A stretch of DNA of 64,000 nt. It comes from Actinomycetota bacterium. Its GTDB lineage: Bacteria > Actinomycetota > Actinomycetes > Nanopelagicales > Nanopelagicaceae. How positions within the stretch are numbered: position 1 is the stretch's first letter; the number at the start of each line of letters is the position of its first letter. Location: positions 1 through 64,000 of the forward strand of contig CANFVU010000004.1 in assembly GCA_947450545.1 (NCBI GenBank). The letters are read 5' to 3'. The notes below the pieces were generated by a model, which saw nothing but the letters and a program-made list of their open reading frames with translations, was not told the DNA's origin and made no database searches. Below, in pieces: positions 5,898 to 7,793 of the stretch. Position numbers and translations under genes: made by a program.

Positions 5898-6440
5898 TTA
5901 GGGCGCGCCAGCAATGCAGTAATCCGCAGCACCTTGCGTGTTTTCACGAGTGAAATGGTCTGCTTGATCAATCATCCATTGATTCATAAATGGGCGAATT
6001 TGCTCACCATCTCTCGTGATAACTCTTGCAAGTGCGACATCAGTGTCGCAATCTATCCAAATGGAGAGCGCAGTTTTCTCACGTATGCATCTTTGCCCGC
6101 TACCGACGCCTTCAAGAATTAATATGGTTGGAGCAGTAAATGTGCGAATTTTGCGGTATTTGCCGAGGTGCCAATCGAAAAGTGGATAAGAAATTTCTCC
6201 GCTTTCAAAACCGCTGACGATATCGAGAAGTCTGTTGCTGAGCGTCTCGGTGAGTGCGTCGCCCCAGCCGTTGTAGAGATCATCCATGTGAATTACTACT
6301 ACATTCACATCAAGGTTGAGAAAGTGGTTCAGAATCTCTTCGGCGAGAGTTGTTTTACCGCTTCCCGCCGGCCCATCAATGGTGATGAGAGATTTTTTAT
6401 CCTTTAAGGAGTGAAGGTGCTCAAGCAGCGTGGGATTCAA
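5898..6440 (-). CDS. P-loop nucleoside/uridine kinase-like protein, possible partner of the thiamine transporter
   Basis: Small P-loop phosphotransferase. Walker A is GPAGSGKTT, followed by HMDDLYNGW as in uridine kinases, a putative Walker B in TILILEGVGSG, and a lid-like segment DCDTDVALARVITRDGEQIRPFMNQW. The frame is open back to a TTG at 6494 (198 residues), overlapping the transporter gene by 74 bp; I prefer the TTG at 6440 (180 residues), which has GCGAGG 9 bases upstream and overlaps by 20 bp. The overlap means co-translation with the riboswitch-controlled transporter, so it may phosphorylate the imported vitamin; that role is inferred, not shown. Confidence 0.75.
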   Translation of the reverse strand: MNPTLLEHLHSLKDKKSLITIDGPAGSGKTTLAEEILNHFLNLDVNVVVIHMDDLYNGWGDALTETLSNRLLDIVSGFESGEISYPLFDWHLGKYRKIRTFTAPTILILEGVGSGQRCIREKTALSIWIDCDTDVALARVITRDGEQIRPFMNQWMIDQADHFTRENTQGAADYCIAGAP

Positions 6441-7035
6441 GCTTTTTTGCCTCGCGTAACCAACGAGCCCATCCACCGACTGCAAGCCCAACAAATATCA
6501 GATAGAGCAGAGCGGTGAGATAGAGACCACCATGCCAATATTGGTAGGTGTAGACAGCATCGACAACAAACCACAGCGGCCATGCTTCGTACTTCTGCCG
6601 AACCATGAGCACTTGAGCAACGCAGCTTCCGGCAAATCCAAATGCATCCGTCAGTGATGCTGCTGCGCCAATGTGAGTGAGAAGTGGGTAGAGAGCAAAC
6701 CACACGACAAGGAACCCAACGCCCCAACGAATCTTTTCATTCACTTTCAAGCGTTCAGGCTTAGCTCCTTTAGGACCCCATCCAAACCAACCCCATACGC
6801 CGCCTGCGATAAAGATGAATTGAAGTGCGCCGCTTGCATAATATTTTTGCTCAAAGAAGAGAATGGCGTAAAGAAAACTTGAGATATTCCACCATGGCCA
6901 TGTAGAACGTGGTCCGAATATTCCAAGAGCGACACCTACGACGGATGTTACGAAAGCGATTAATTCCAAGAGCGAGAGATCGTATTTCCACGCTGTGAAA
7001 ATCGTTGTCATTAAGAATGAATTGAGAGAATGCAC
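6421..7035 (-). CDS. pnuT: PnuC-family vitamin transporter, probably PnuT (thiamine)
   Basis: Integral membrane protein of 204 residues with about seven hydrophobic segments and the PnuC-family features WWNISSFLYAILFFEQKYYAS, GVWGWFGWG and WFVVDAVYTYQYW. PnuC proteins carry nicotinamide riboside, PnuT proteins thiamine, by facilitated diffusion followed by intracellular phosphorylation. The TPP riboswitch immediately upstream decides for thiamine. The GTG start at 7035 is chosen because AAAGGGG ends 5 bases before it; an ATG eight codons later has no binding site. It overlaps a kinase gene downstream, suggesting a transport-and-trap pair. Confidence 0.85.
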   Translation of the reverse strand: MHSLNSFLMTTIFTAWKYDLSLLELIAFVTSVVGVALGIFGPRSTWPWWNISSFLYAILFFEQKYYASGALQFIFIAGGVWGWFGWGPKGAKPERLKVNEKIRWGVGFLVVWFALYPLLTHIGAAASLTDAFGFAGSCVAQVLMVRQKYEAWPLWFVVDAVYTYQYWHGGLYLTALLYLIFVGLAVGGWARWLREAKKLESHAA

Positions 7036-7040
7036 AAGTA

Positions 7041-7130
7041 CCCCTTTCCAATTCGCATTACCGAACTGGTCACACGGTCGACCTGGATTTCAGGTCCTCT
7101 CAGCCACTAAATCGGCTCCCGTTAAAGAGG
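7041..7130 (-). promoter_or_regulatory. TPP (THI-box) riboswitch controlling pnuT
   Basis: Read on the minus strand, the region holds the THI-box landmarks in order: CGGGAGCC, GGCTGAGAGG, a variable hairpin (ACCTG/CAGGT), CGACC, then GACCAGTTCGGTAATGCG and AAAGGGG. The order and spacing match actinobacterial TPP aptamers. The 3' element AAAGGGG is also the Shine-Dalgarno sequence of pnuT and can pair with CCTCTTT at 7124-7130, so TPP binding would hide it and block translation. The control mode is inferred. Confidence 0.82.
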
Positions 7131-7170
7131 AGATTAGCACCCAACACGGGGCTAAGTGAGAGAATGAGAC

Positions 7171-7503
7171 GTGATGAAATTGGGATATCTCGCGATGCTC
7201 GCTTTTACAGTCGCTGGCTCCTTCTGGCTTGAAGTGGTCTTAAAGGTGGGAGTACTCAAGCGCACCAAGCGAGTTTTTTTCACGATTGCACCTGTCGCAT
7301 TCCTCTTCTTGATGTGGGACACATATGCAATCCGATCAGGGCACTGGCATTTTGATGAGAAGCAAATTCTTGGAATCTATCTTCCTGGAAATATTCCGCT
7401 CGAGGAGTTCCTCTTCTTTCTCGTCGTGCCACTAGCGGCAATCATGACAATCGAAGCAGTCCGCACTGTGAATTCACATTGGACTGTGGGGGATGAAAAA
7501 TGA
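7171..7503 (+). CDS. crtYc: Lycopene cyclase subunit CrtYc
   Basis: One half of the heterodimeric lycopene cyclase of Gram-positive bacteria, closing ionone rings on lycopene at the membrane. The 110-residue protein has three hydrophobic segments and the family motif PLEEFLFFLVVP near residues 75-86. Its stop region overlaps the next gene crtYd by 4 bp (ATGA), as expected for subunits made in equal amounts. GTG at 7171 or ATG at 7174 may be used; GAGAGAATGAGA lies just upstream. It is divergent from pnuT. Confidence 0.9.
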   Translation: MMKLGYLAMLAFTVAGSFWLEVVLKVGVLKRTKRVFFTIAPVAFLFLMWDTYAIRSGHWHFDEKQILGIYLPGNIPLEEFLFFLVVPLAAIMTIEAVRTVNSHWTVGDEK

Positions 7504-7793
7504 GCTACACCGGGCTCGCGCTTTTCGCTGTACTCGTCGCCGTTCTCGCCGATGTTCAGCTGACGCAATCGAAGATGATTTTTCGCAAATCTTTCTGGAC
7601 GTCATACGCCATCATTTTGCCTTTCCAACTTCTCACCAATTGGTGGCTCACGTCCCGCAACATCGTGATGTATGACAGCAATCAAATTATTGGATGGAGA
7701 ATTGCAAGTGCTCCAATCGAAGATCTGCTCTTCGGGTTCTCACTGGTGCTTGCGATATTGCAACTGTGGAGCTACTGGGGACGCAAACTTTAA
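7500..7793 (+). CDS. crtYd: Lycopene cyclase subunit CrtYd
   Basis: Second half of the heterodimeric lycopene cyclase, 97 residues, about three membrane segments, with the counterpart motif APIEDLLFGF near residues 70-79. Translationally coupled to crtYc. Its 3' end overlaps the convergent phytoene synthase gene by 4 bp. Ring type (beta or epsilon) and whether one or both ends are cyclised cannot be read from sequence. Confidence 0.88.
   Translation: MSYTGLALFAVLVAVLADVQLTQSKMIFRKSFWTSYAIILPFQLLTNWWLTSRNIVMYDSNQIIGWRIASAPIEDLLFGFSLVLAILQLWSYWGRKL

Follow-up and report, generated by a model that had tools for sequence, protein, structure and literature searches.

A Uridine-Kinase-Fold Protein Encoded behind PnuT Probably Traps Thiamine in Freshwater Actinobacterial Auxotrophs

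Introduction

Why does a gene for a P-loop kinase overlap a transporter gene that stands directly behind a TPP-type aptamer, and on what would such a kinase act? The question is raised by a locus in a 64,000-nucleotide stretch of a Nanopelagicaceae genome (contig CANFVU010000004.1, positions 1 to 64,000), which is the window analysed here. The acI/Nanopelagicales have been described as outnumbering all other bacterial groups in most lakes (PMC5301498). For acI strains, Kang et al. (2017) already proposed thiamine auxotrophy with PnuT and a THI element, and they reported nearly all thiamine salvage enzymes to be missing (PMC5301498). That work deals with the same organism group and the same gene, but the kinase is unmentioned and the RNA is called an ordinary THI element.

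We consider it likely that the locus, taken as a whole, is best explained as an operon with which a vitamin B1 auxotroph takes up and traps thiamine. PnuT would admit thiamine by facilitated diffusion, and the enzyme of uridine-kinase fold encoded by the overlapping gene would phosphorylate it once, to TMP. PnuT should not export TMP, which would trap the vitamin in the cell; ThiL, encoded elsewhere, would turn TMP into TPP, and the TPP-type aptamer ahead of pnuT would report the thiamine state and repress translation of the operon. By phosphorylating and trapping thiamine, the kinase thus probably fills the missing B1 step in freshwater auxotrophs, a thiamine-kinase activity that we infer from the slot in the operon and the gap in the pathway. 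The direct basis of this reading is the layout of the operon and its conservation, the occurrence of ThiL without ThiE, TPK or ThiK, the fold of the kinase, and a variant of the aptamer.

Organization of the Locus

The three elements lie on the minus strand at the positions that a first-pass annotation of the window had given them. The aptamer occupies 7029..7132 and is followed directly, as that annotation had it, by the PnuC-family gene pnuT at 6421..7035 (GTG start at 7035, alternative ATG at 7011). The kinase gene comes next, at 5898..6440, with a longest open reading frame that reaches 6494. Its likely start is the TTG at 6440, because related loci have ATG (L001, L003) or TTG (L002) at exactly the same spot. 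The overlap with pnuT claimed earlier is real; it shrinks from 74 nt between the longest reading frames to a likely 20 nt.

The transporter matches PF04973 (PnuC/NMN_transporter) with an E-value of 2.9e-37 and 128.7 bits, and its gene stands under a TPP-type aptamer, as a PnuT gene should; we predict that it is the thiamine transporter PnuT. An attempt to tell nicotinamide riboside (NR) carriers from thiamine carriers by the PnuC sequence failed, the W..W...D/N motif being variable within families. The genome of the window, G000, has a second PnuC-family gene (G000:C14:10399-10977, L192); no riboswitch was found near it, and its counterpart in genome G139 (L193) carries an FMN aptamer.

Linkage of the Kinase to PnuT across Genomes

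A scan of 85,000 species genomes yielded 65 relatives of the kinase, and 64 of them lie directly behind pnuT, with the aptamer motif recognized by pattern in 63 of these loci and by eye in the 64th (L020). Two of the linked loci belong to the complete acI genomes IMCC19121 and IMCC26103. A synteny check showed that these 64 loci, all of family f1, share the order crtI-crtB-(crtYcd)-aptamer-pnuT-kinase-PASTA kinase over whatever part of it their contigs cover. This common neighborhood means that they represent one inherited linkage, and counting them as 64 independent events was rejected. As a detail of this neighborhood, the window has crtYc/crtYd (7171-7793) between crtB and the aptamer; in many acI loci, no match to them was found in that interval, and crtB directly precedes the aptamer.

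Further occurrences come from a PnuC survey of 148 genomes across the class. It located TPP-type pnuT in f1 and, of the remaining families that were examined, only in those from the order of genome G151. By coordinates, pnuT adjoins the kinase gene in 10/10 cases within f1. Among 20 other PnuC loci that were checked, FMN riboswitches were found in six and a TPP riboswitch in none. In f39, a family from the order of G151, the same type of kinase gene comes after each of the 16 pnuT genes, in surroundings unlike those of f1. The f39 unit of aptamer, pnuT and kinase adjoins a tRNA gene on the opposite strand (L140 5388-5460, L198 2356-2428), which is a possible insertion site.

In the sister families f32 and f34, each of 11 TPP-pnuT genes is followed by a non-homologous P-loop kinase, mostly with a 4-nt overlap (ATGA). 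This other kinase matches PF13521 (AAA_28) with an E-value of 4e-25 and the NadR-like model TIGR01526 with 1e-13. In f34, the gene after the AAA_28 kinase encodes the PASTA serine/threonine kinase also seen in the window; two unrelated kinases have thus come to occupy a single operon slot. At one locus, L220 in genome G187, the kinase behind pnuT reads as a product of 121 amino acids, possibly frameshifted or broken. Bacteroides shows a comparable order, TPP-pnuT-tnr3, in which Tnr3 is a thiamine pyrophosphokinase (PMC5613172). We think that this recurrent pairing of pnuT with a kinase gene is the strongest argument for the second gene acting on what PnuT imports. An association of the kinase with pnuT and TPP aptamers across genomes, to which the first-pass annotation had tied its reading beforehand, thus held, in 64/65 relatives and in 16/16 loci of a second family.

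The wider PRK06547 family, to which the kinase is closest, is common in Actinomycetes without any linkage to thiamine, and no TPP aptamers were seen near unlinked PRK06547 genes in 20 loci. In Streptomyces-sized genomes (L188 in G147, L189 in G077 and similar ones), an FMN-riboswitch PnuC gene lies about 9 kb from an unlinked PRK06547 gene; this proximity may be only synteny with a riboflavin transporter.

Fold and Phylogeny of the Kinase

The earlier description of the second gene as a uridine-kinase-like P-loop protein with a Walker A motif was borne out. The kinase matches PF00485 (PRK/uridine kinase) with an E-value of 1.4e-8 and 35.2 bits, over a cutoff of 22. Its AF2 model has a pLDDT of 95.6, and a Foldseek search with it gave human UCK2 as the best match (E 9e-11, TM 0.73), uridine-cytidine kinases being nearest and phosphoribulokinases next. 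The Walker A sequence GPAGSGKT is encoded at 6351..6374 (minus strand; G23, G26, G28, K29 and T30 invariant). HMDDLYNGW (6264..6290, minus strand), with the putative catalytic Asp, lies where strand 2 ends, which is also its place in uridine kinases. Little or no variation is seen in either motif, or in EGVG and RVxxRDG, among 47 aligned sequences; in HMDDLYNGW, M52, D53, Y56, G58 and W59 are invariant, and H51, D54, L55 and N57 nearly so.

The protein nevertheless stands apart from the named families. The closest curated model is PRK06547 (NF005115), a "hypothetical protein", which it matches with an E-value of 6.5e-28 and 97.3 bits against a cutoff of 173, and with the Udk models it reaches 49.2 of 220.3 bits (TIGR00235) and 49.9 of 180 bits (PRK05480). 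It shares with PRK06547 and Udk proteins the fold, the Walker A, MDDLYxGW, EG and RDG motifs, but it scores below the cutoffs of both families and the pnuT-linked branch is separate. It does not belong to the ThiK family (TIGR02721, APH fold), its fold being another one. In a tree, the pnuT-linked kinases of f1 and f39, together with those of two f29 genomes, are split from 42 other PRK06547 proteins with a support of 97/98 and a branch length of 0.87; one of these f29 genomes, G094, has TPP-controlled ThiBPQ. A comparison of residues found only L67, I108, V140 and M152 to differ in the pnuT-linked kinases, with no clear signature of a substrate site.

In the prototroph G128 (L139 5459-6019), the kinase gene occupies the same position in the neighborhood, but pnuT and the aptamer are missing, and HMDDLYNGW has drifted to HMDEMYEGW. 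This locus had suggested a resident kinase and a later insertion of pnuT, an order of events that was rejected since the G128 kinase falls within f1 in the tree, inside the pnuT-linked clade; pnuT and aptamer were probably lost in G128. The same placement bears on the possibility that the kinase is a bystander, that is, that pnuT and its aptamer landed upstream of an unrelated resident kinase and synteny kept them together. The single neighborhood common to all 64 acI loci would agree with this, as would a wider PRK06547 family unlinked to thiamine. However, the pair also occurs in f39 amid other surroundings, a non-homologous kinase takes the same slot in f32/f34, the position of the G128 kinase speaks for a loss of pnuT there and not for a gain elsewhere, and the f39 prototroph G161 has neither pnuT nor the kinase. 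Taking these points together, we regard a bystander role as very unlikely.

A Missing Step in Thiamine Metabolism

The substrate of the kinase can be approached through the thiamine genes that its hosts retain. ThiL is present in all 15 kinase-bearing genomes of a first set, complete ones included (13 over the cutoff and two as fragments), and none of the 15 has ThiE, TPK or a ThiK over the cutoff; no ThiK was found in G000. In 26 further genomes, ThiL is found in all, TPK in none, and ThiE only in G128, G161 and G207, all three of which are without pnuT. All 20 genomes of these 26 that have pnuT and kinase carry ThiL and lack both ThiE and TPK. The known signature salvage enzymes for vitamin B1 are ThiK, ThiM and ThiN (PMC6593275). 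ThiL without ThiE or a known thiamine kinase leaves no known source of TMP, and this makes the kinase the obvious candidate in the genomes with pnuT and kinase: it would convert thiamine into TMP, and ThiL would convert TMP into TPP. The import-and-trap interpretation put forward in the first-pass annotation gains support both from the genomic association and from ThiL being present where ThiE and TPK are absent, with thiamine as the substrate that we infer. To that interpretation we add that the product passed on to ThiL is most likely TMP.

A different role would be that of a thiamine pyrophosphokinase making TPP directly, with ThiL as a leftover. The locus does resemble the Bacteroides pnuT-tnr3 system in having a TPP aptamer, PnuT and a kinase gene immediately downstream, and, behind TPP-pnuT, the kinase stands where Tnr3 does (PMC5613172). 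Nevertheless, Tnr3 is a TPK, whereas the genome of the window has no TPK, the slot is filled by a protein of uridine-kinase fold, and ThiL would finish the pathway. All 41 genomes tested, even streamlined ones of 1.2–1.5 Mb, have kept ThiL although most have lost ThiE, and the closest solved folds, uridine kinases and phosphoribulokinases, transfer one phosphate. Direct synthesis of TPP by the kinase is, in our opinion, quite unlikely. Precursor salvage is often controlled by TPP, which would suit a kinase that acts on HMP or thiazole alcohol, like ThiD or ThiM. Joining the two halves requires ThiE, which is absent from every genome with pnuT and kinase tested, and such a role is hardly conceivable.

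The ambiguity of the PnuC sequence, which by itself cannot separate thiamine from NR carriers, leaves room for NR or nucleoside salvage under a TPP-type aptamer, with the kinase making NMN or UMP. The slot kinase of f32/f34 is related to the ribosylnicotinamide kinase domain of NadR, and the fold of the window kinase is uridine kinase-like, which would both fit. Against it, a TPP-type aptamer is found at all loci, with the full TPP pocket in f34, the presence of the operon tracks the loss of the thiamine gene ThiE, and acI strains can salvage NAD and, for the most part, also have pathways to make it de novo anyway (PMC5301498); we find salvage of this kind unlikely. The resemblance is rather one of principle: PnuC-NadR uptake of NR combines facilitated diffusion with phosphorylation as a metabolic trap (PMC7221760), and in f32/f34 the likeness extends to a kinase like the NadR ribosylnicotinamide kinase in the slot. 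In the window, by contrast, the TPP-type aptamer and the loss of ThiE point to thiamine and not to NR, and the kinase comes from another P-loop family.

Two auxotrophic relatives, G079 (L232) and G130 (L233), have ThiL but neither ThiE nor TPK, and contain no pnuT and no PRK06547 kinase; a standard TPP aptamer precedes the thiBPQ importer operon in them. As these bacteria live without such a kinase, another source of TMP can exist, be it imported TMP/TPP or another enzyme.

An Aptamer without the Pyrophosphate Pocket

The RNA had been annotated as a TPP riboswitch, and this stands only in part. A full-length match to RF00059 covers 7029-7132 on the minus strand with 38.1 bits and an E-value of 4.4e-6, below the gathering score of 54.3. 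At the gathering score, Rfam gives no match anywhere in the 64-kb window and none in 17 aptamer-bearing relatives, and falling below this cutoff would explain why the variant has been overlooked. With the RF00059 riboswitch the window RNA shares P2, P3, CUGAGA, the P5 loop UAAU and covarying helices. Its J3-2 pyrimidine sensor, CTGAGAGG / CUGAGAGG (7096..7103, minus strand), with the UGAGA, does not vary in any relative in an alignment of 64 sequences. Across these, P2, P3, P3a and P5 are 97.1% paired, with seven pairs changed on both sides, against at most 43% in slid controls; this covariation indicates that the RNA is maintained.

What the RNA lacks is the pyrophosphate pocket, and hence it is no normal TPP aptamer. 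In standard TPP aptamers, G60 of J4-5 and C77/G78 of J5-4 hold the metal-bound pyrophosphate (PMC3764141), and in E. coli thiM switching requires pyrophosphate recognition (PMC4112796). In the pnuT aptamers of acI, both strands of the pocket arm are shorter by about 2 nt and form one helix with at most a small bulge. In the window this is the continuous P4-P5 hairpin CCAGUUCG-GUAAUG-CGAAUUGG (7048..7069, minus strand), from which the J4-5/J5-4 internal loop, with the C77-G78 of J5-4, is missing. CGnAGG, the motif of J5-4, occurs in 37/37 of the other actinomycete TPP aptamers that were checked (true biosynthetic or ABC-linked ones, five further pattern matches having been left out as judged non-aptamers). 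Among pnuT aptamers, it occurs in 3/3 from f34 and 1/7 from f32; no f1 or f39 aptamer that was examined has it, some of the f39 sequences being read by eye. The RF00059 scores follow the presence or absence of the pocket, with 65 bits in f34, 49–58 in f32, 38–41 in f39 and 38 in the window.

A candidate Shine-Dalgarno sequence, AAAGGGG (7041..7047, minus strand), lies 5 nt before the GTG at 7035. According to an evaluation of sequence and structure, it is complementary to the 5' strand CCUCUUU of the aptamer (P1), with which it pairs in the aptamer-like fold of the window leader. In the single-sequence MFE structure, the conserved UGAGAG pairs instead with CUCUCA just inside the gene. The ligand-bound aptamer would repress translation by sequestering AAAGGGG, a direction of control modeled on this one leader.

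The pocketless aptamers of f1 and f39 may sense something other than TPP, for example, thiamine or TMP. If the ligand has indeed changed, nature would here provide a specificity variant within the most widespread class of riboswitches. A broader proposal, that the uridine-kinase-fold family (NadR-like in sister families) serves ThiL-only actinobacterial auxotrophs as their thiamine kinase and that, in addition, the pocketless aptamer senses thiamine or TMP and not TPP, is in our view rather doubtful as a joint claim. Within a partial coverage of the literature, we found no publication on a thiamine kinase of P-loop type, on a kinase of this type linked to pnuT or on a TPP aptamer without the pocket. 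Three points are new compared with the publications found: the assignment of the kinase, the replacement of this kinase in its slot by an unrelated one, and an aptamer that has lost the pocket. The operon would supply the missing thiamine step in acI/Nanopelagicales, and a function would be given to a widespread branch of "hypothetical proteins" (PRK06547-like). One slot would then hold three unrelated enzymes that activate thiamine, namely, TPK in Bacteroides and, as proposed here, AAA_28 and PRK06547-like kinases.

Several pnuT aptamers of f32 (L206, L202, L209, L208, L215) are also without the CG motif of J5-4 and yet are paired with the AAA_28 kinase, so that loss of the pocket is not strictly tied to the type of kinase. 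In the prototroph G128, the thiC-thiM-thiE-thiD operon carries a standard TPP aptamer.
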